A stretch of DNA of 64,000 nt, taken from contig NZ_AAWS01000044.1 of the NCBI RefSeq assembly GCF_000169175.1, positions 1 through 64,000 on the forward strand. Direction: 5' to 3'. The notes beneath the pieces were generated by a model. That model saw nothing but the letters and a program-made list of their open reading frames with translations, was not told the origin of the DNA and searched no databases. Origin of the DNA: Microscilla marina ATCC 23134 (GTDB lineage: Bacteria; Bacteroidota; Bacteroidia; Cytophagales; Microscillaceae). A program made the position numbers and the translations under genes. Each line of letters begins with the position of its first letter. Position 1 is the stretch's first letter. This document shows positions 7,062 to 48,626 of the stretch, piece by piece.

Positions 7062-7135
7062 TGGACCCACCTGGGCTCGAACCAGGGACCACCTGATTAT
7101 GAGTCAGGTGCTCTAACCAACTGAGCTATAGGTCC
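7062..7135 (-). tRNA. tRNA with CAU anticodon (tRNA-Met or tRNA-Ile2), copy 2
   Basis: A 74-nt cloverleaf on the minus strand starting GGACCTATAGCTCAGTTGG. The anticodon loop is CTCATAA, giving anticodon CAU; the T-arm reads GGTTCGAGCC; the discriminator base is A; no CCA is encoded. The CAU anticodon is shared by elongator Met and by lysidine-modified Ile2. The GGACC/GGTCC acceptor ends recall Ile2, but isotype cannot be settled by eye. Identical to the copy at 7226-7299. Confidence 0.95.
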
Positions 7136-7225: not shown

Positions 7226-7299
7226 TGGACCCACCTGGGCTCGAACCAGGGACCACCTGATTATGAGTCAGGTGCTCTAACCAACTGAGCTATAGGTCC
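7226..7299 (-). tRNA. tRNA with CAU anticodon (tRNA-Met or tRNA-Ile2), copy 1
   Basis: Base-for-base the same 74-nt tRNA as 7062-7135, 90 bases upstream in the same direction. The spacer between the two shares only a few bases next to the 3' end, so this is a gene duplication of the tRNA itself. Both copies probably share one transcript ending at the hairpin at 7026-7053. Confidence 0.95.
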
Positions 7300-37609: not shown

Positions 37610-38860
37610 CTAACTTACAGCCACCACCATTCCGGCAGCTACAGTATTATGGCTATGTTCATCAACCAAAATAAAGCTACCGTTGGCAGGGTTTTCTTTA
37701 TAATTATCTATCAATATCTCTTGAGCAGTTTTTAACTGGACTTGCCCCAAGTCGTTTAATTCAAACTTGTCAGCACCCGTCGTTTCCTGCAAAGTTTCTA
37801 TGTCTATTTTGTGCACAAAATCGCTGATTTTCACCCGGGTAGTGTTGCTGTTGTGGCGCAACAAATAAAACTGGTTAGGTTCCAGCGGTTGGGTATCCAT
37901 CCAGCAAATAGAGGCAGTGATTTGGCGGGTAGGAGAGAGGCTCGCCTGGCTCGGTACAATCATATCGCCCCGGCTAATGTCTATGTCATCTTCGAGGTGC
38001 AATACCACCGACATAGGAGCAAAAGCTTCTTCTATTTCTTCTTGGTTAATTTCCAGCGCTTTTATCTTAGAGCGTGTACCCGAAGGCAATACCGTTACCT
38101 CATCGCCTTTACGGTATACCCCGCTTAGCACCTTGCCCGCGTATCCCCTATAGTCAGGATGGTCAGCCGTTTGGGGGCGAATGACCCACTGTACTTGAAA
38201 GCGATTGCTGCTCAATTGCGGTTTTTTGTCTATATCTACTTCCTCCAAAAACCTAAGCAAAGGTTTACCCTCGTACCAAGCCATTTTCTCCGATGGCTCT
38301 ACCACATTATCCCCGTCAAGGGCACTTACTGGGATAAAAGTAAGGTTAGGAATATCCAGTCCTTTGGTTACTTCTTTGTAGTCTGCTACAATCTTGTCAA
38401 ACTGCGCCTGGCTATACTCTACCAAGTCCATTTTGTTGATACAAACCACAAAATGTCTGATTCCCAATAAGTTGCAAATAAAAGAGTGGCGGCGGGTTTG
38501 CTCAATCACCCCGTTGCGTCCGTCAATCAAAATAATGGCAAGGTCAGAGTTAGACGCGCCCGTTACCATGTTGCGGGTATATTGCACATGTCCTGGGCTA
38601 TCGGCAATGATAAATTTGCGTTTGCTTGTATTAAAATATTTGTAGGCAACATCTATAGTAATGCCTTGTTCGCGCTCCGAGCGCAACCCATCGGTGAGTA
38701 AGGCAAGGTCAATTTCGCCATTCTGCTTGTTTTTACTGGCACGGCTGATCGCCTCCAGCTGGTCGTCCAAAATAGATTGGCTATCGTATAATAAACGCCC
38801 AATTAAAGTACTCTTGCCATCGTCAACACTCCCGGCAGTGATAAATCTTAATATGTCCAT
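37610..38860 (-). CDS. cysN: Sulfate adenylyltransferase subunit 1 (GTPase)
   Basis: A 416-residue elongation-factor-like GTPase that drives sulfate activation to APS together with CysD. G motifs are GSVDDGKSTLIGRLLYDS (residues 9-26), DSPGHVQYTRNMVTGAS and VVCINKMDLVEY. It ends after the EF-Tu-like beta domains, so there is no fused APS kinase (CysC) domain. It is the last gene of the sulfur cluster and has its own terminator. The 523-base gap to cysD is filled with dispersed repeats. Confidence 0.94.
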   Translation of the reverse strand: MDILRFITAGSVDDGKSTLIGRLLYDSQSILDDQLEAISRASKNKQNGEIDLALLTDGLRSEREQGITIDVAYKYFNTSKRKFIIADSPGHVQYTRNMVTGASNSDLAIILIDGRNGVIEQTRRHSFICNLLGIRHFVVCINKMDLVEYSQAQFDKIVADYKEVTKGLDIPNLTFIPVSALDGDNVVEPSEKMAWYEGKPLLRFLEEVDIDKKPQLSSNRFQVQWVIRPQTADHPDYRGYAGKVLSGVYRKGDEVTVLPSGTRSKIKALEINQEEIEEAFAPMSVVLHLEDDIDISRGDMIVPSQASLSPTRQITASICWMDTQPLEPNQFYLLRHNSNTTRVKISDFVHKIDIETLQETTGADKFELNDLGQVQLKTAQEILIDNYKENPANGSFILVDEHSHNTVAAGMVVAVS

Positions 38861-39383
38861 AATGATAATGACTTTCTCGTTTTTAGTTAAATGTTATTTA
38901 GTTTTTTAGTCCATAGACCATAGTCGGTAGTCCATAGCGCCAACAAGGTTCTAGGTGCTAGGTGCAAGGTACACCCTGTTCCCTAAGCAACTACACTTTT
39001 TCTATCACGTTGATTTTTAGCAACTTATAAAAAGCGTAGTTAAAAATTGGGAGCTTCTATAGCCTTAAGCTTTTAGCGACAAGTCTTTAGCCCCGCTAAA
39101 TCTCTGGATTCCCAATTCTAGACTGATATTCTTAAATTTGCAAAAATGATATTTTAGTCAGTAGACCATAGTTGATAGCCCTGCAAGGTTCTAGTACTCT
39201 AGCTTCTGAGTAGGTAAAGTAACAATTTGGTTAGATTAACTACGCTGAGCTCGTGAAAAGCTCGGTATTGTTCTTTGACGATCTTAGACTCCGAATAATG
39301 TGGTAGGAATTTAGTTTCCAGTGCACTAGTAGCTTACAACTCTAAAGGCTACCAACTCCTGACTCTCGACTATTGACTGTCCA
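38861..39383. other. Repeat-filled gap between cysD and cysN
   Basis: No gene. It contains GGTGCAAGGTACACCCTGTTCC then AACTACACTTTTTCTATCACG and GCGTAGTTAAAA, the same unit that is tandemly repeated at 54983-55255, and pieces such as CATAGTTGATAGCCC typical of the other dispersed repeats. Confidence 0.6.
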
Positions 39384-40289
39384 CTAAAAATACCCCACTT
39401 TCTTTCTATCCTCCATCGCTGCTTCCGACTGTTGGTCGTCAATGCGCAAGCCACGCTCGGTAATGCGTGAAGCCTTGATTTCTTCTATTACCTCATCTAT
39501 AGTGCTTGCCTTAGACGAAACCGCCGCAGTACAAGTAATGTCGCCTACCGTACGAAAACGTACTGTTTGTTTGGTAAAAGCATCGTTGGCGTCTAAGTTG
39601 ATATGAGGCGAATTGGCCATCAACTGCCCATCTCTTTCGATGCACTCGCGCTCGTGGGCGTAATAAATAGAAGGAATATCAATGCCTTCGCGCTTGATGT
39701 AATTCCACACATCCAACTCAGTCCAGTTACTAATCGGGAACACCCTCACGTTTTCGCCTTTGTTTATTTTACCATTGTAAATGTTCCAAAGCTCAGGGCG
39801 CTGTTTCTTAGGCTGCCACTGACCAAAATCATCTCTTACCGAAAAAATTCGCTCTTTGGCTCTAGCCTTTTCTTCATCGCGACGAGCCCCACCAATACAA
39901 GCGTCAAACTCGTGTTTTTCTATAGTTTCCAGTAGCGTATAAGTCTGCAACGAGTTGCGGCTGGCATATTTTCCACTTTGTTCTTTTACCTTTTTGCTAT
40001 CAATCGCATCTTGTACATAGCCCACTACCAGCTCCTCGCCCAGGCTCTCCACCAATTGATCTCGAAACTGAATAGTTTCCTCAAAGTTGTGCCCAGTGTC
40101 AATATGTACTAAAGGAAAAGGAAACTTACCTGGACGAAAAGCCTTTTGCGCCAAACGCACCAACGTAATAGAGTCTTTTCCGCCTGAGAACAACAGCGCA
40201 GGGCGTTCAAACTGTCCGGCCACTTCTCTTAAAATATGAATGGCTTCTGCCTCCAATTGATCCAGGTAATCTAAAGTATATTGTTTCAT
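39384..40289 (-). CDS. cysD: Sulfate adenylyltransferase subunit 2
   Basis: A 301-residue ATP-pyrophosphatase-type enzyme that forms APS from ATP and sulfate. The PP-loop is PALLFSGGKDSITLVRLA; other family marks are LVHIDTGHNFEET, GGARRDEEKARAKERIFS, FPISNWTELDVWNYI and the C-terminal RKKVGYF. Length is normal. It lies between cysH and cysN in the same direction, with long repeat-filled gaps on both sides, so co-transcription is likely but not certain. Confidence 0.95.
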   Translation of the reverse strand: MKQYTLDYLDQLEAEAIHILREVAGQFERPALLFSGGKDSITLVRLAQKAFRPGKFPFPLVHIDTGHNFEETIQFRDQLVESLGEELVVGYVQDAIDSKKVKEQSGKYASRNSLQTYTLLETIEKHEFDACIGGARRDEEKARAKERIFSVRDDFGQWQPKKQRPELWNIYNGKINKGENVRVFPISNWTELDVWNYIKREGIDIPSIYYAHERECIERDGQLMANSPHINLDANDAFTKQTVRFRTVGDITCTAAVSSKASTIDEVIEEIKASRITERGLRIDDQQSEAAMEDRKKVGYF

Positions 40290-40711
40290 AAGTGTTTTTT
40301 TATAGCAGCTGTAAGTTAAGTACTGCTTATTGCGTTGTTAAATGTTTCAAAGTTTAGCCAGGAGCAATGAGCCCCAGTGGCAAGCATTAAATAAATAAAA
40401 ATGAGCCCTATTTATGGGCTAAGGCAAGTACAGGCAAATTGCCTGTATTTGCGCCATCACTTAGTTTAAAAACTGAACCCTGTCTATGGGTCAAATACTA
40501 CGACAAAATTTTTTTTAGTCGGGAGTCAGGAGTCAGGAGCCTCAAGCTACAAGTTTAGCGTAGCCACTGTTGACTAAAGAACTTCCATCTACCAATTTTA
40601 TCAACAGTTAAAAATCAAGGCTTTATAAAATTGGCAAGTTGCTTGTAAAGCAGCCTCAAGCTAAAGGCTAAAAGCTTGAGGCTGTAGAGGCTCCCGACTG
40701 TGGACTCCCAA
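40290..40711. other. Repeat-filled gap between cysH and cysD
   Basis: No gene. It includes a perfect inverted repeat TACAGGCAA (40429-40437) and TTGCCTGTA (40439-40447) without a T tract, the small hairpin AGCCC/GGGCT near 40404-40420, and a composite dispersed repeat from about 40588 to 40700. Confidence 0.6.
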
Positions 40712-41410
40712 CTATTTATGCAATCCACATTCTTTCTTAGTAGGGTTTTCCCACCACCAGCGTCCGGCGCGAAGCGCTTCGCCCACCTTTACGGCACGGG
40801 TACAAGGCTCGCAGCCAATGCTGGGGTAACCATGGTCATACAGTTTGTTATAGGGTACGTTGTTGTCTAAAATATATTTTTCGGTTTGGTCGAGCGACCA
40901 GGCAAATAGCGGGTGAGCCTTTACAATGCCCCGTCCTTCGTCCCATTCTAACACATCCATATTGCTTTGGCGGTTGTTCGATTGTCCACCTCTAATGCCT
41001 GTAATCCAGCACTCAACCCCCTGAAGGGCACGGTTCAAAGGCACTACCTTACGGATAAAGCAACATTCTTTGCGGTTTTCTACCGAATCATAAAAACTAT
41101 AATTTCCTTTATTGCTTACCAGGGTCTGTAGCTCTTGGCTCTCTGGAAAAAACACCTCAATCTTTTGATTGTACTGTTTGTTGGTTTCTTCCAATACCTG
41201 GTGTGTTTCTTTAAACAACCTGCCTGTGTCAAGGGTAAATACCCTAATGGGAATCTGATAACTAAAAATCATATCAGTAATTACCTGATCTTCAAGACTA
41301 AAGCTAGTCGAGAAAGCAATCTTTCCGGCAAACTCTTTAGCCAGGTTTCTGAGCGTCTTTACCGGATTTTGCGCATCGGCAAGCGTGTTGATATTGGCTA
41401 ATTCTTTCAT
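40712..41410 (-). CDS. cysH: Adenylylsulfate (APS/PAPS) reductase
   Basis: A 232-residue reductase turning activated sulfate into sulfite. The PP-loop-like region is AFSTSFSLEDQVITD, and the C-terminal catalytic Cys is in KECGLHK. It also has the Cys pair in RKECCFIRKV and CEPCTRAV, ligands of a 4Fe-4S cluster found in APS-type enzymes; this fits the absence of an APS kinase in the cluster. It is downstream of the DUF3592 gene in the same direction. Confidence 0.93.
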   Translation of the reverse strand: MKELANINTLADAQNPVKTLRNLAKEFAGKIAFSTSFSLEDQVITDMIFSYQIPIRVFTLDTGRLFKETHQVLEETNKQYNQKIEVFFPESQELQTLVSNKGNYSFYDSVENRKECCFIRKVVPLNRALQGVECWITGIRGGQSNNRQSNMDVLEWDEGRGIVKAHPLFAWSLDQTEKYILDNNVPYNKLYDHGYPSIGCEPCTRAVKVGEALRAGRWWWENPTKKECGLHK

Positions 41411-42190: not shown

Positions 42191-43093
42191 TCAAGTAATA
42201 GAGGCATAAAAAACGCTTCCTACCATATAGCTACTCAATAAAATGATTGTCACCCCTACAATTCGCATCAGCATTTTAGACTGAAGCCTGGCGGCTAAAA
42301 AAGCCGAAAAGTAAGACGCTGGCACCCCGCCAATCAACAAACCTGCAATCAACATCCAGTCTTTTGGGGTAAGGTGTACCAGGCTCAAAAATGCTCCGGT
42401 AGAAATTACCGCAATAAAAAACTTCACGGTGTTTACTGTGCCAATCGTATAGCGTGGAGTGCGCCCTTTGCTTATGAGCGTAGAAGTAATCAAGGCGCTC
42501 CATCCACCGCCACCTACCCCGTCGAGAAACCCTCCCACCAAAGCAAGCGGTGTAATGTTTCGAGTCTTTTGTTTGCGTACTTTCTTTTTGAGCGAACGCG
42601 AAAAAACCACGATGCCCATGCCCAACATGTACACTGCTACAAAAGGTTTAATCAGATGACCGTTGATGCTGGTGAGCAACAATGTACCCAGCAATACCCC
42701 CACAATGCCCGGAATGAGCAAATGCCAAAAAAGTTTCTTGTTGATGTTACCCATGCGGTAGTGTGCCCAGCCCGACGTACCATTGGTAAATACTGCGGTG
42801 GCGTGTACACTACTACTCACCAAAATAGGCGGCAAGCCCAGGCTCAGCAATATGGTAGAAGTAATGAGCCCATAAGCCACCCCAATGGTTTGTACTACAA
42901 AACCAATGGCAATATAGCCCACAAAACTCCAGGAGAGGTGAGGGGTGATTTGTTGAATTGCCTTGCTCAGCGCCGGAGGTTGGTTAACAAGAAACACGAT
43001 GACCAGACTCACCAAAAAAAGACTTGCTGCAGTGTATACCACCCGGCGAATATGCCATGTAAAAGCCTTTTGTACCTTCTCTAAATTTATCAC
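42191..43093 (-). CDS. TauE/SafE-family sulfite or sulfonate exporter-like permease
   Basis: A 300-residue protein with about eight membrane helices and the family's duplicated pattern, including SSSVHATAVFTNGTSGWAHY in the first half and VGGFLDGVGGGGWSALITS in the second. TauE/SafE proteins are thought to move sulfite, sulfonates or related anions across the inner membrane. The position inside the sulfate reduction cluster supports sulfite or sulfate as substrate. The start overlaps the stop of the siroheme gene by one base. Confidence 0.87.
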   Translation of the reverse strand: MINLEKVQKAFTWHIRRVVYTAASLFLVSLVIVFLVNQPPALSKAIQQITPHLSWSFVGYIAIGFVVQTIGVAYGLITSTILLSLGLPPILVSSSVHATAVFTNGTSGWAHYRMGNINKKLFWHLLIPGIVGVLLGTLLLTSINGHLIKPFVAVYMLGMGIVVFSRSLKKKVRKQKTRNITPLALVGGFLDGVGGGGWSALITSTLISKGRTPRYTIGTVNTVKFFIAVISTGAFLSLVHLTPKDWMLIAGLLIGGVPASYFSAFLAARLQSKMLMRIVGVTIILLSSYMVGSVFYASIT

Positions 43094-43761
43094 TATGCGT
43101 TGTGCGACTTTTCAGCCTGCTTTTGTTGTTTTTGTTTTCCTTCTGTTGAGGTATTTGCCTCGTTTGCCACCATATTTTCGGTAAGCGCATTGAGGGTCTC
43201 CAGCTTGTGCTGAAAGTCACCCTTAAGGCGGTTTCTAAACTGGTGTAAATTGTTCAGCAGATTTTGAATATTATCGGGCAAAGTAGCCTCAAAATACTGG
43301 CGCATGCGTTTTGCCAGCGTGGGCGACTTACCATTGGTAGAAATGGCTATTTTTAAATCTCCTTTTTTTACCACCGACCCCAAATAAAAATCGCACAAGT
43401 CGGGAGTATCTGCCACGTTGATAATGGTTTTTTGCCCACGCGCCTGTTGGCGAATGCTTTGGTGCAATGGTTGATTGTCAGTGGCGCAAATCACCAAGTC
43501 GCGGTCTTTCAAGTCGTGGGTTTCATATTGGCGCTCAAGCAAACTTACTGTAGGGTGTTGCCCAATCAAAGCACGGGTTTCGGGCAGTACCATATCTGCC
43601 ACCACGGTTACATTAGCCTCAGGGCTGTTTTTGAGCAGCGCCGAAAGTTTTTCGAGCCCTACATTGCCTGCCCCCACCAGCAAAATGTCTAATTGGTGCA
43701 GTTTCAAGAAAATAGGAAACAAATTGTTGCCTGTGTTTTCGGTTAGAGTATTAGTTGCCAT
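43093..43761 (-). CDS. Precorrin-2 dehydrogenase / sirohydrochlorin ferrochelatase-like (siroheme synthase N-domain)
   Basis: A 222-residue NAD-dependent enzyme like SirC, Met8 or the N-terminal half of CysG. Signs are PIFLKLHQLDILLVGAGNVG with the NAD-binding loop, LVICATDNQPLHQSI, INVADTPDLCDFYLGSVVKK and IAISTNGKSPTLAKRMR. It oxidises precorrin-2 to sirohydrochlorin and may insert iron, giving the siroheme needed by sulfite reductase upstream. It overlaps cobA by 11 bases. Confidence 0.9.
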   Translation of the reverse strand: MATNTLTENTGNNLFPIFLKLHQLDILLVGAGNVGLEKLSALLKNSPEANVTVVADMVLPETRALIGQHPTVSLLERQYETHDLKDRDLVICATDNQPLHQSIRQQARGQKTIINVADTPDLCDFYLGSVVKKGDLKIAISTNGKSPTLAKRMRQYFEATLPDNIQNLLNNLHQFRNRLKGDFQHKLETLNALTENMVANEANTSTEGKQKQQKQAEKSHNA

Positions 43762-44596
43762 AGTTGCCCGTGTTGATCTGTTGGTTTACCAAATTTTTAA
43801 ATTCAGCCGGAGCCGAAGTTGCCAGCCTTACCACCTCGCCAATCACAATGACTGCCGGAGCGCCTAAGCCTTTTTGCTCCGCTATAGCGGCAATGTTATG
43901 TACTTCGCCAAAGCCAGTTTTTTCGTTGGCACAACTTCCATTCTGAATGATTGCCACGGGCGTATTTTGTTTGCCATATTGGCTAAATATGGCGGCGATT
44001 TCTTTGAGTTTGCGCATTCCCATCAGAATAATGACCGTAGCCGATGATTGTGCCGCTAAAGGCATATCTTGAGATATTTCCTGTTTTTTGGTAGTACCCG
44101 TAATCACCCAAAAACTTTCGTTGATGCCACGCTTGGTCAAAGGAATTTGCTTAAGCGCAGGCACGGCAAGCGAGCTGCTGATGCCAGGCACTACTTCGGT
44201 GTCCATGTCAAACGATTGGGCAAAAGCCAACTCTTCATGTCCGCGACCAAACACAAAAGGATCTCCTCCCTTAAGGCGCACTACGTGCCCGTGTTGAAAA
44301 GCCTCCTCTACAATCAATTGATTGATCTGATCTTGTGACAAATATTTTTTACCTCCGCGTTTGCCTACATATTTTTTGAGGGCATTTTTGGGAGCATACT
44401 CCAGCAAAGCCGGATTTGCCAAGGCATCGTATAGTACCACATCGGCGTTTGCCAAAGCCCTGATAGCCTTCAGGGTAATGAGTTCGGGGTCGCCAGGACC
44501 TGCGCCCACTAGTGTAAGCTTGGGCTTGAGGGTGCGTCGTTGGCTCAAAGCCCCCTGGTATAATGTAGTGTTTGTATTGTTTAAAAAAGCGTTCAT
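43751..44596 (-). CDS. cobA: Uroporphyrinogen-III C-methyltransferase
   Basis: A 281-residue SAM-dependent methylase that makes precorrin-2 from uroporphyrinogen III, the first step to siroheme. Typical motifs are LVGAGPGDPELITLKAIRAL, VLYDALANPALL, VVRLKGGDPFVFGRGHEE and EVVPGISSSLAVPAL. ATG at 44594-44596 is preferred; the frame extends 14 codons further without similarity. Together with the next gene it replaces the fused CysG of enterobacteria. Confidence 0.93.
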   Translation of the reverse strand: MNAFLNNTNTTLYQGALSQRRTLKPKLTLVGAGPGDPELITLKAIRALANADVVLYDALANPALLEYAPKNALKKYVGKRGGKKYLSQDQINQLIVEEAFQHGHVVRLKGGDPFVFGRGHEELAFAQSFDMDTEVVPGISSSLAVPALKQIPLTKRGINESFWVITGTTKKQEISQDMPLAAQSSATVIILMGMRKLKEIAAIFSQYGKQNTPVAIIQNGSCANEKTGFGEVHNIAAIAEQKGLGAPAVIVIGEVVRLATSAPAEFKNLVNQQINTGNYGN

Positions 44597-44685
44597 AGTG
44601 TTGTCTTTGAGTGGCAAGCATTTAGCAACAAGCCACAAGTATATTTGCAGTGGTAACTTGTCGCTTGTTGCTCTAAGCTTGTTAT

Positions 44686-46815
44686 TTATAAGGTTGTTTC
44701 CGCTATTTGCTTGCCACGATAAGCTTTAATTTTATTTAAGAAATCTCCCGCCTGCTCAATGTACTCTTTGGCAAACTCAGCGGTGGGTTCGTGTTGGTTC
44801 ATGCGTAATACATGTGCTTTAAAACCACCTTCAAAGGTAAATTCAGCCTGATTGCCCAAATGCTCTTCAAACTTTTTCATCACTGTAATCTGAGCGTTGG
44901 TTTTTACATCTTCGCCCAGTAGCAAAGCCTTGGCGCCATTGATAAAAGTATTGTAAGCGTGGTAAATGGCATCGGCGTAAGCCCCTTCGTTAAACGTTTG
45001 CTGAGCAGTTTGGTATTTTTCTTCGGTTTCGTATACCAGTGTAGCCACCAGGTCAATGATTACCCCTGCACATTCGCCTACTGCCTTGATCACCTCAAAA
45101 GGATCGTTGTGTCCCCAGTCAAGAAAATCGTCTTGTTCCAGGTTGTCGAGGTTTGCCAAAGGCTTGAGTAGGGTGTAAAAATATTTTTTGCCCAAACGAC
45201 GGTAATAATCAGTATAATACTCACCTTCTAATTGGTTGGCGTCATAGTCGGCAAGTAGTACACGCAGCACTTCTACGCCACGTTTACTGGGTACTTTTAT
45301 CACCTTATCCGCTACCAAGCCGTCACCGTTGCCACTTACACCACCCCCTAACAATACCTGTAGAGCTGGCAACACCAGGGCGCCTTTTTTGATAGAGCTT
45401 CCGTGAAAACCAATCGTGGCAAGCGTGTGCTGTCCACAAGAGTTGGGGCAACCGCTAATTTTGATCTTAATTTGTTGGTTATGAATCAAGTCAGGATATT
45501 CAGCGTGGATTACCTCTTCAAGAGCACGGGTAATGCCAGTGCTGCTCGATATGCCCAGGTTACAAGTGTCGGTGCCAGGGCAAGCCGTAATATCAGCCAC
45601 ACTGTCGTAACCTGGTTGGGCAAGGTTGAGCGCGTCGAGCGCCTGAAACAAGGCTGGCAACGACTCTTTGCGCACGTACTTTAGCAAGTAGTTTTGGCTA
45701 ATGGTAATTCTAATATCATCGGCAGCGTAAGTTTGCACAATTTGCGCAAGCTCACGTGCCGTTTTAGTGTTCATATTGCCTAAAGACAGTTTAATAAAGA
45801 CACCGTAAAATCCGGCTTGCTTTTGTTCAAATACATTGGTAGCAAGCCAACGGTCGTATTGTTGTTGGTTATTTATTTGTATTCCGGCAAGAGCCCCGTT
45901 TAGTGGTGCCGGAGGACTTACTTCTGGTAAAATATCGCGGTTGATCGGGTAGGTTTTGTAAGGCAAAGCTTTGCGCTCAGCTTCGGCAAGCTCCAGTACT
46001 TTTTCGAGCCCTAATTCCTTTACCAAAAACTTAAGCCTGGCCTTTTGGCGACGGCTACGCTCTCCGTAGCGATCAAACACCCTGAGAATAGATTCGCTGA
46101 AAGGGATCAGTTCGTCTTCGGGTAAAAATTCTACCCCGGTTTTAGCCAAGTGAGGGATAGCACCTAAGCCACCACCCAACATTACTTTAAAACCGCGTTC
46201 TTCTTCGCCTTGGGCGTTGGTGCGCACTTTGGGTATAAACCCTAAATCGTGAATAAAAGTAAAGGCGGTATCGGCTTCGCTTGATGAGAAAGCAATTTTA
46301 AATTTACGCCCCATTTCCTGGCAAACCGGATTGCGTAAAAAGTATTCGAACACCACTTGGGCATAAGGCGATACATCAAAGGGTTCGTTGGGGTCAATAC
46401 CTGCTCTTGCCGAAGCAGTTACATTACGCACAGTATTACCACAGGCTTCACGCAAAGTAATTTGGTCTTTTTCGAGCTGTGCCCATAGCTCAGGGGTGCG
46501 GTCAAGGCTCACATAGTGAATCTGAATGTCTTGGCGGGTAGTGGCGTGCAAGTTGCCGTCAGAGTATTCGTCGGCAACGTCGGCAATGCGTACCAATTGT
46601 TGGGTAGTGAGGCGTCCAAAAGGTATTTTGATTCGGATCATTTGCACCCCCGGCTGACGCTGTCCGTAGACTCCTCGCGCCAAACGTAAGCTGCGAAACT
46701 TTTCATCGTCAATTTTCCCTTCATGGAATAATTGAATTTTATTGCCCAGTTCGATGATGTCTTTCTCAACGATTGGGTTGTTCAAATCCTCTAATTCGGT
46801 TCTAAAACTTTGCAT
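44686..46815 (-). CDS. Siroheme sulfite reductase with C-terminal HEPN domain
   Basis: A 709-residue member of the ferredoxin-type nitrite/sulfite reductase family. It shows the duplicated half-domains (GVQMIRIKIPFGRLTTQQL; GFYGVFIKLSLGNMNTK) and the 4Fe-4S/siroheme cysteines in ACPGTDTCNLGIS and ISGCPNSCGQH. About 130 extra C-terminal residues look like a HEPN helical domain (YADAIYHAYNTFINGAKALL) without the RxxxxH ribonuclease motif. Sulfite rather than nitrite is inferred from the cysD, cysN, cysH and siroheme genes downstream. It is the first structural gene after the cysteine-rich leader. Confidence 0.9.
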   Translation of the reverse strand: MQSFRTELEDLNNPIVEKDIIELGNKIQLFHEGKIDDEKFRSLRLARGVYGQRQPGVQMIRIKIPFGRLTTQQLVRIADVADEYSDGNLHATTRQDIQIHYVSLDRTPELWAQLEKDQITLREACGNTVRNVTASARAGIDPNEPFDVSPYAQVVFEYFLRNPVCQEMGRKFKIAFSSSEADTAFTFIHDLGFIPKVRTNAQGEEERGFKVMLGGGLGAIPHLAKTGVEFLPEDELIPFSESILRVFDRYGERSRRQKARLKFLVKELGLEKVLELAEAERKALPYKTYPINRDILPEVSPPAPLNGALAGIQINNQQQYDRWLATNVFEQKQAGFYGVFIKLSLGNMNTKTARELAQIVQTYAADDIRITISQNYLLKYVRKESLPALFQALDALNLAQPGYDSVADITACPGTDTCNLGISSSTGITRALEEVIHAEYPDLIHNQQIKIKISGCPNSCGQHTLATIGFHGSSIKKGALVLPALQVLLGGGVSGNGDGLVADKVIKVPSKRGVEVLRVLLADYDANQLEGEYYTDYYRRLGKKYFYTLLKPLANLDNLEQDDFLDWGHNDPFEVIKAVGECAGVIIDLVATLVYETEEKYQTAQQTFNEGAYADAIYHAYNTFINGAKALLLGEDVKTNAQITVMKKFEEHLGNQAEFTFEGGFKAHVLRMNQHEPTAEFAKEYIEQAGDFLNKIKAYRGKQIAETTL

Positions 46816-46913
46816 TGTGTCGTAGTGTCTTACTTGGTTTATTTGAATATTTAAGTGCTCTTCTTGGCTTCCCCTAGGGCAGTTTCGGAAAGGGCTCTGA
46901 GACCTACGGCAAC

Positions 46914-46950
46914 AAAAAAGCCTTTCCTGAATTGCAACAGAAAAGGCTTT
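46914..46950 (-). terminator. Second leader terminator of the sulfur operon
   Basis: RNA arm AAAGCCUUUUCUG (46950 to 46938), 8-base loop, CAGGAAAGGCUUU (46929 to 46917) forming 13 pairs with one wobble, then a U run to 46914. It lies about 100 bases before the sulfite reductase start, so transcripts must read through it. Confidence 0.85.
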
Positions 46951-47004
46951 ACGCTTTATTTTTTCTTACAAAGTTTCGTATGTTATGAAACGGTGCTATC
47001 GAAT

Positions 47005-47037
47005 AAAAAAGCCCTCCCTGTGGATAAGGGAAGGCTT
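47005..47037 (-). terminator. First leader terminator (attenuator hairpin) of the sulfur operon
   Basis: RNA arm AAGCCUUCCCU (47037 to 47027), 7-base loop, AGGGAGGGCUU (47019 to 47009), then a U run to 47005. Its CCUUCCC (47034 to 47028) can instead pair with GGGAAGG at 47082-47076 at the end of the leader ORF, which would prevent the terminator. Confidence 0.85.
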
Positions 47038-47072
47038 GAGATTATATTTTTGGTATTTTTATATAATACAAT

Positions 47073-47174
47073 TCACCTTCCCATTCGACACATACAACAC
47101 CAAAACCAGCAAGCGCAACGCTTGGAGGCGGCGATTTTATCGTTGAATAGAAATTGGTGAATGTTTAAGTTCAT
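47073..47174 (-). CDS. Cysteine-rich leader peptide (33 residues) of the sulfate assimilation operon
   Basis: A short ATG frame (start 47174, TGA at 47075-47073) upstream of sulfite reductase. The first half is ordinary (MNLNIHQFLFNDKIAASKR); residues 20-29 read CACWFWCCMC, five Cys, two Trp and one Met in ten codons. It starts about 27 bases after a good promoter -7 box and is followed by two intrinsic terminators. This is the layout of an amino-acid attenuator: a ribosome waiting at Cys codons when Cys-tRNA is scarce would leave GGGAAGG (47082-47076) free to sequester the first terminator. A ribosome that reaches the stop would cover it. Peptide function itself is not expected. Confidence 0.72.
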   Translation of the reverse strand: MNLNIHQFLFNDKIAASKRCACWFWCCMCRMGR

Positions 47175-47200
47175 TGCTCTTTTATCAGTTAAATGTTGCA

Positions 47201-47233
47201 CAAACGTATTGCATTAAAAATTAGATTCCAAAA
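47201..47233 (-). promoter_or_regulatory. Promoter of the sulfate assimilation operon
   Basis: On the minus strand TTTTG (47233 to 47229), a 20-base spacer, and TACGTTTG (47208 to 47201) match the Bacteroidetes -33 TTTG and -7 TAnnTTTG consensus. The expected transcription start near 47195 is about 20 bases before the leader ORF start. Confidence 0.7.
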
Positions 47234-47381
47234 CTATTTCTGAAAAAATGCCTAAAAACGTTAAATTTTAACTTTCTGGTAACATTGGATATAGGAAAAG
47301 TGCAATTCAGAGTCAAGTTTAGGTAATTGGGTATTAGCCGCAAAAATGTAGCAACCCTATCAGATTACTCAGTTTTCAGTT

Positions 47382-48406: not shown

Positions 48407-48417
48407 ATTGATTTAAC

Positions 48418-48626
48418 GTTTCAATCCTTGTTTTAATGGATTTATATCTTGTAGGTTTTTGTACAAGTTTAATATCTTTTTTAGCAATGTCTTACTCCTT
48501 GTTGTAAAGGGATATTAGGTTTCGGGGAAAATACAGCGTGTCACATATCAGCAGTATTTTACTAGTACAAATAGTGACCTAAGTTTAAGTTTCAATCCTT
48601 GTTTTAGTGGATGTGTGCTGCACAGG
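48418..48626 (+). repeat. CRISPR-repeat-like degenerate copies between higB and higA
   Basis: GTTTCAATCCTTGTTTTA followed by ATGGAT at 48418-48441 and by GTGGAT at 48589-48612, sharing 23 of 24 bases, with a diverged third copy (CTCCTTGTTGTAAAGGGAT) near 48495-48513. Copy 1 to the middle copy is 71 bases, a normal CRISPR period; middle to copy 3 is about 100. The GTTTCAATCC opening is typical of many CRISPR repeats. No cas genes are in the window. It may be a decayed array or an unrelated repeat. Confidence 0.4.

Follow-up and report, generated by a model that had tools for sequence, protein, structure and literature searches.

The sulfate-assimilation operon of Microscilla marina ATCC 23134 lies behind a short cysteine-rich ORF and two intrinsic terminators, which raises the question of whether a ribosome reading this ORF reports the cysteine supply to the genes downstream. 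Judged from sequence and comparison, the leader is very probably a ribosome-mediated, cysteine-responsive transcription attenuator, an interpretation strongly supported at that level. The ORF, its Cys codons, the terminators, the antiterminator complementarity and the gene context are found directly in the sequence and in related loci; from these we infer translation of the leader, stalling, the kinetics of the switch, a relay between the terminators and the response to cysteine.

The leader and its operon

The window, i.e. the whole stretch of 64,000 nucleotides analysed here, carries leader and operon on the minus strand. The first gene encodes the sulfite reductase SiR (NIR_SIR, 709 residues, 44686..46815) and is followed by genes for a CobA-type uroporphyrinogen-III methyltransferase (43751..44638), a siroheme synthase N-terminal-domain protein (43093..43761), a TauE/SafE sulfite exporter family protein (42191..43093), a DUF3592 protein, CysH (PAPS/APS reductase, 40712..41410), CysD (39384..40289) and CysN (37610..38860). 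The long gaps between cysH and cysD (40290-40711) and between cysD and cysN (38861-39383) contain brief recurring motifs, among them CTCCTGACTCC and ACTATGGTCTATGGACT; a second leader in either gap was considered and dropped, no Cys ORF being seen there. Elsewhere in the window, two similar repeats (48413-48441 and 48584-48612) lie 171 bases apart, the former overlapping a CRISPR-DR7 match (RF01320, 44.6 bits, 48418-48454); they may be solitary repeats or what is left of an array. Tandem tRNA genes with identical scores are located at 7062-7135 and 7226-7299.

The leader ORF (47073..47174) comprises 33 codons, reads MNLNIHQFLFNDKIAASKRCACWFWCCMCRMGR up to its stop codon and clusters codons for the product of the pathway, with Cys at codons 20, 22, 26, 27 and 29. 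Codons 11-27 (NDKIAASKRCACWFWCC, 47094..47144) form a peptide core that is conserved in a codon alignment of 22 sequences and is discussed below; its 24-base DNA pattern occurs only once in the 9.8 Mb genome. Between the ORF and SiR two intrinsic terminators with U tracts are found, terminator 1 at 47005..47037 (seen in sequence and folds) and terminator 2 at 46914..46950 (seen in sequence); the terminators proper span 47037-47009 and 46950-46917. ORF, terminators and the SiR start at 46815 are located exactly where the original prediction had placed them, and the complementarity it had noticed between GGGAAGG at the end of the ORF (47082-47076) and the ascending arm of terminator 1, which contains CCTTCCC, is present in the sequence as well. 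No Rfam family scores above its gathering threshold in the window leader (the best leader family, Phe_leader, reaches 25.5 vs 55), and the covariance model of the SAM-I riboswitch (RF00162) has no match there.

Upstream of the ORF, TACGTTTG (47208-47201) and a TTTG 20 nt farther upstream together form the element TTTG-N20-TACGTTTG (47201..47232), a match to the Bacteroidetes promoter consensus. The predicted consensus-like promoter element is thus present, but since a -7-like element within 70 nt upstream is weakly enriched among relatives (17 of 62 leader ORFs selected by the stricter rule of four Cys in eight residues, 9.9 expected), it is a plausible candidate for the promoter rather than an established one.

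Computed complementarity and folds provide a competing antiterminator that a stalled ribosome would free. Its 5′ strand, here called segment 2 (GGGAAGGTGAATTGTATT, 47065..47082, from computed pairing and folds), pairs with a 3′ strand at 47028..47048, which in the folds overlaps the ascending arm of terminator 1; the resulting hairpin has a computed energy of -16.4 kcal/mol and terminator 1 alone one of -17.4 kcal/mol. When nothing is translated, segment 2 is predicted to pair with segment 1 (47145..47161). This 1:2 pairing is significant in the window (p 0.005) and reaches p<=0.05 at 7 of 36 loci, and segment 1 was consequently rejected as a general part of the element, the hairpin not being conserved.

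Folds were calculated for a transcription start at 47195 and a ribosome footprint of 14 nt past the A site. For a polymerase that has just cleared the ascending arm, the antiterminator is part of the minimum-energy structure if the A site is at Cys20, Cys22, Cys26 or Cys27, and missing from it at Cys29 and the stop codon; in these fold states a wait at Cys29 would block segment 2 instead of freeing it. Once completed, terminator 1 is favoured at equilibrium in every ribosome state tried, stalled ones included. The fold states are in keeping with an attenuator. Because terminator 1 wins at equilibrium even with a stalled ribosome, the predicted switch must be kinetic. Classical attenuators are likewise kinetic.

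In the proposed mechanism, transcription would start near 47195 and a ribosome would trail the RNA polymerase through the ORF. With ample Cys-tRNA the ribosome would reach the stop codon and cover segment 2 (47082-47065), so that terminator 1 folds and transcription ends. With scarce Cys-tRNA it would wait at Cys20-27, leaving segment 2 free to pair with 47048-47028, including the ascending arm of terminator 1, which then could not fold. The descending arm of terminator 1, freed in this way, may in turn base-pair with its ascending counterpart in terminator 2, and a polymerase that has passed both terminators would enter the SiR-cys operon.

Such a relay between the two terminators is possible because these arms can pair. 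In the window and in the related locus L003, both with one ORF followed by two terminators, the calculated pairing energies are -14.8 and -13.3 kcal/mol, respectively, compared to -3.6 and -2.8 kcal/mol with a shuffled spacer, a lenient control since the shuffled spacer is A/T-richer than the terminator arm. In the fold of this stretch the relay pairing beats terminator 2 in L003, while terminator 2 wins in the window. The arm pairing could also be a by-product of duplication, as both terminators share a sequence.

Recurrence of the leader in front of sulfite reductase genes

For comparison, 193 SiR upstream regions from related genomes were used, 13 of them collected via the core pattern; the relatives' SiR proteins are mostly 50-67% identical to that of the window. 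A Cys-cluster ORF was scored within 500 nt upstream of SiR by the stricter rule (at least four Cys in eight residues) or by a looser one (three Cys in six). The stricter rule yields such an ORF at 54 of the 193 loci, against 1 on the opposite strand and a mean of 0.6 in dinucleotide shuffles, and at 43 of 180 loci if the 13 pattern-collected ones are left aside. By the looser rule the count rises to 70 of 193 (opposite strand 11, shuffles 9.2). The near-identical pairs L001/L002, L006/L007, L044/L051, L085/L087 and L330/L331 are counted twice in these and in the pairing counts below. L016, L092 (101 bases long) and L276 (same genome as L038) stand outside the 193-locus set, and G110 represents two loci.

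The distribution among families is uneven. Under the stricter rule Cys ORFs are present in the window's own family f1 (6/6), in f4 (1/1), f13 (10/11), f27 (2/4), f18 (3/15, with 0/9 in its genus g41) and f15 (1/13), and at the single locus of each of f45, f46 and f61, families outside the class. In f19 they occur at 27 of 69 loci, 11 of the 27 being pattern-collected, and are absent at 42; f5 has 1/7 by the stricter and 4/7 by the looser rule, f23 0/9 and 2, respectively. None was found by the stricter rule in f11 (0/31), f26 (0/10) and f20 (0/5), nor at the SiR loci of f16, f24 and f36 (0/2 each) and f22, f50 and f64 (0/1 each). The peptides of the looser-rule list differ between lineages in their non-Cys residues, examples being CCCCCCCC, CCCNCCCCC, CCGFCCM and KSCCCPEL. 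Two Cys leader ORFs in series are seen before SiR in L008, in L267 and at f13 loci (e.g. L042, L044, L045, L051, L052 and L057); a separate terminator follows each ORF in L008 and, judged by eye, in L267 too.

Terminators accompany most of these ORFs. At 38 of 55 leader loci (stricter rule; shuffles 0.6), a terminator with a score of 22 or more separates the last clustered Cys codon from SiR. The 17 loci lacking one by the set criteria belong mostly to f13 but include L009, which bears the window's core, and L278, whose terminator is visible otherwise and was missed purely by the loop-length limit. For leaders selected by the looser rule, as in the peptide list, RNA behind the Cys codons pairs with the terminator's ascending arm more strongly than its shuffles do in 36 of 56 ORF-terminator pairs for p<=0.05 (about 3 expected) and in 27 for p<=0.01 (about 0.6 expected); when pattern loci and near copies are set aside, the count at p<=0.05 is 21 of 38. 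No significant antiterminator was obtained for 20 of the 56 ORF-terminator pairs. The mean pairing energy is -13.9 kcal/mol for an ORF with its own terminator and -10.3 kcal/mol for swaps between families, and in the significant pairs the antiterminator segment begins 1-18 nt past the last Cys codon, with 31 nt in one case.

As ORF, Cys cluster, terminator and antiterminator are found again before the SiR genes of relatives, the arrangement in the window is, on comparative grounds, not a product of chance. Other short Cys-rich ORFs do exist in the window, and one could regard the leader as a chance ORF next to the terminator of an upstream gene, devoid of regulation, yet in view of the strand and shuffle controls and of the conservation in distant relatives this is hardly credible. 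Besides the Cys clusters, most leader loci have kept a terminator with a possible antiterminator partner, which supports the originally predicted attenuator at the sequence level. The lack of conservation of ORF and Cys codons that had been named as telling against it is not observed; the clusters are kept while the other residues vary by lineage.

The peptide core and competing readings

In the codon alignment, the core NxKxxA[SA]xR[CR][AE]CW[FYH]WCC is common to 22 leaders with single exceptions at x-flanked positions. Most of them were found by DNA patterns for [AE]CW.WCC or CACW.WCC, the f1 members via SiR, and the WxWCC part is fixed by the search pattern for most rows. Arg(-2) is invariant (22/22) and written with CGT, CGA, CGC, CGG, AGG and AGA; without L137 and L179, whose search pattern also demanded the Arg codon CGN, it is still found in 20 of 20, with five codons. 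Lys(-8) (21/22), Ala(-5) (20/22) and Asn(-10) (17/22) occupy positions outside both search patterns. The middle position is F in 16, Y in 4 and H in 2 leaders and L in none, although L was allowed by the pattern, and flanking positions mostly show 8-22% pairwise identity. Since Arg(-2) is invariant with varied codons and Lys, Ala and Asn are kept while the flanks diverge, selection on the core is, according to this alignment, acting on amino acids, something not expected if codons alone were sensed. That a hairpin inside the core accounts for its conservation was rejected, since both AGA/AGG and CGN codons are used for Arg. The final two Cys codons of the core (47099-47094 in the window) are UGU in 43 of 44 cases; the two Cys positions before them, where UGC is freely used, have UGU in 19 of 40 (p 8.5e-8).

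The core is closely tied to SiR. Within f19, 14 core-motif matches in 148 genomes all precede SiR, and the reversed pattern gives 0; in G078 one of two core copies is located before SiR and the other before a CysH gene. On a tree of 53 SiR proteins the core-bearing leaders group together (3 changes, against a shuffled mean of 15.7), L006, L007, L036 and L037 having been labelled poly-Cys by hand under a looser rule. In place of the core, L020, sister (support 99/95) to the core-bearing L003, carries a plain Cys8 run. A core-pattern match in G364 (L030) is a chance occurrence, out of frame inside another gene. A scan of genome contigs with the extended core gave at least 116 stretches; 11 inspected among the 80 listed comprise 6 leaders and 5 chance-like cases, and many of the remaining matches listed are titled Pseudomonas.

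Conservation of a nascent chain at the amino-acid level, as found in the 22-leader alignment, suggests an arrest peptide, in which nascent NxKxxA[SA]xR[CR][AE]CW[FYH]W would slow the ribosome at the next two UGU codons, the signal being read by peptide and codons and possibly with another ligand. In the arrest peptides TnaC and SecM, conserved residues likewise reside in a leader peptide before the regulated gene. The window's core resembles them in this residue conservation and differs in that codons for the product amino acid are its main feature and that stalling is here a proposal. The residues kept at Arg(-2), Lys(-8), Ala(-5) and Asn(-10) and the nearly uniform UGU codons argue for such an arrest, the WxWCC conservation imposed by the search and the coreless poly-Cys leaders of other lineages, L020 with its Cys8 beside L003 among them, against it. 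It is our preferred reading of the core's role, although a tentative one that falls somewhat short of probable, and it refines rather than excludes the attenuator; sequence comparison thus points to codon sensing as the shared principle and to the core as an addition. The same conservation might mark a functional microprotein, binding for instance a metal or SiR, with terminators that merely end its own short transcript, and the five leader peptides compared with protein families gave no match. However, the N- and C-terminal parts of the peptide diverge freely, relatives carry plain Cys runs in place of the core, and the antiterminator complementarity overlaps or follows the end of the ORF, which makes a microprotein quite improbable.

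Poly-Cys leaders, for their part, may respond to a second sulfur amino acid if Met codons among the Cys codons add a Met-tRNA response. In 37 such leaders Met accounts for 23 of the 172 non-Cys residues that lie in the Cys cluster or immediately behind it, and for 30 of 851 elsewhere (p 2.5e-6); similar peptides were removed from this set, in which some relatives remain, and L106, L063 and the window's class were left out. All 45 poly-Cys leaders before thinning give 30/207 vs 34/1024. Met residues before the cluster, outside the reported test, could be start codons; for those inside or just after it, the ORF as drawn excludes this. In the window's class Met is hardly enriched (10/199 vs 12/409). 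On this evidence, dual sensing is conceivable but rather doubtful. Core conservation, passage of terminator 2, Met codons and the riboswitch composites of the same genome described below all go beyond the original prediction.

SAM-I composites and known systems

In the M. marina genome a pattern for CCCC codons gave 103 matches compared to 75 for the reversed pattern, and one of 30 inspected loci led to a composite with a SAM-I riboswitch. The Cys7 ORF of this genome has such a riboswitch directly in front. Outside the genome, SAM-I precedes the Cys ORF also at 9 of 11 f13 SiR loci and at L020; the other 8 loci of that set and 20 further Cys-ORF loci have none. The three SAM-I riboswitches of the genome lie before the genes for MetY, MetH and a RimK-like ATP-grasp protein. 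The first (G000, C61:3001-3106, L359) is followed by an ORF ending in ACCCC and the third (G000, C5:285662-285775, L361/L304) by one ending in CCCCCCCW, while no Cys ORF is found behind that of MetH. Among 71 SAM-I loci, a Cys ORF follows the riboswitch at 19 of 31 before metY, 0 of 20 before metH, 0 of 1 before metK and 4 of 19 others; controls gave 0 on the opposite strand and 0.6 in all in shuffles. The loci were taken, not at random, from the upper part of lists over 116 genomes, one of which has further entries (72 loci, with L364 skipped at a contig edge), and their gene labels derive from short sequence motifs, HMM-checked solely for L359 (MetY) and L360 (MetH); some rows labelled other resemble MetH starts (L367, L381).

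The composite ORFs mostly start 5-15 nt past the aptamer. The statistics that follow cover 22 of the 23 composites (L380, a near copy of L359, was dropped). Between Cys run and stop these have 0-2 codons, compared to a median of 10.5 in 46 terminator-bearing SiR leaders selected by the stricter rule (p 3e-9), and a terminator score of 22 is reached in 0 of 22. In the first 60 nt past the stop, C exceeds G in 18 of the 22, a mild bias (24.5% vs 17.4%) that is seen in 17 of 43 SiR leaders with terminators and in 13 of 14 f13/L020 ORFs without. SAM-I followed by a poly-Cys ORF is possibly a two-input switch for SAM and cysteine: SAM would decide whether the ORF is translated, and a ribosome held up at the last Cys codons would keep Rho off the C-richer RNA past the stop. 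To our knowledge, a poly-Cys ORF behind SAM-I is not part of the known S-box family; the S-box (SAM-I, RF00162) occurs before poly-Cys ORFs in this genome and its relatives, not in the window leader.

Taken jointly, these observations would allow the reading that the Cytophagales, and in part other Bacteroidota, run their sulfur regulon on Cys-codon leaders of two architectures, i.e. intrinsic-terminator attenuators before SiR and cysH, and SAM-I riboswitches ending about 5-15 nt before a poly-Cys ORF (metY; the SiR operons of f13 and G012), the leader of the window's class having become an arrest peptide; for this joint reading we regard the case for and the case against as evenly balanced.

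The general mechanism is that of the trp/his/leu-type leader-peptide attenuators of Proteobacteria, which share with the window a short ORF with codons for the end product, an antiterminator/terminator pair and a pathway operon. The window differs in the amino acid, cysteine, in belonging to the Bacteroidota, in having two terminators after one ORF, in its amino-acid-conserved core and in a 1:2 hairpin that is not general. Attenuators of this type are surveyed in PMC2965389; as far as their accessible text goes, neither this survey nor PMC7366714 names a Bacteroidota cysteine leader, and that of PMC9723704 reports clues to leader-peptide attenuation before amino-acid operons of Flavobacterium psychrophilum, with cysteine unnamed. 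According to the accessible part of PMC1262725, Cys-run leaders are predicted for mycobacterial and Propionibacterium cys genes and for Bifidobacterium cbs, in the mycobacterial regions the Cys run lies close to the stop codon and conserved terminator hairpins are lacking, and Rho is suggested; PMC13236596, in the part accessible, cites experimental work on mycobacterial Cys leaders (Canestrari 2020). Like them, the window places a short ORF with Cys codons ahead of sulfur/cysteine genes. Unlike them it has two intrinsic terminators, and most of its Cys codons lie some way from the ORF end, the last at codon 29 of 33, whereas the SAM-linked poly-Cys ORFs, with the Cys run near the stop and no terminator, match the actinobacterial type. 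In Rhodobacterales, uORFC-8-2 upstream of cysS combines Cys codons and a terminator (PMC8632094, accessible part). Here the uORF, the Cys codons, the intrinsic terminator and the proposed logic agree with the window; uORFC-8-2, however, is confined to cysS and Rhodobacterales, with two Cys codons usually at 14-15, while the gene next to the window's leader is SiR and the context is sulfate assimilation in Bacteroidota.

A literature search over titles and the beginnings of abstracts, few subscription papers among them, returned no Bacteroidota cysteine attenuator and no composite of a SAM riboswitch with a Cys ORF. Cys leaders are thus known in actinobacteria and Rhodobacterales, with the Bacteroidota version and the SAM composite not found in print. 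Compared with these systems, the leaders described here would extend cysteine attenuation to intrinsic-terminator leaders before sulfate-assimilation genes and offer a concrete answer as to how these Bacteroidota could match sulfate assimilation to the cysteine supply with no regulator protein dedicated to it. A metabolite riboswitch directly before a codon-sensing ORF could allow SAM and cysteine, two end products of the pathway, to be read serially, and the leaders together constitute a natural set of relatives for studying at what point a codon counter becomes an arrest peptide.
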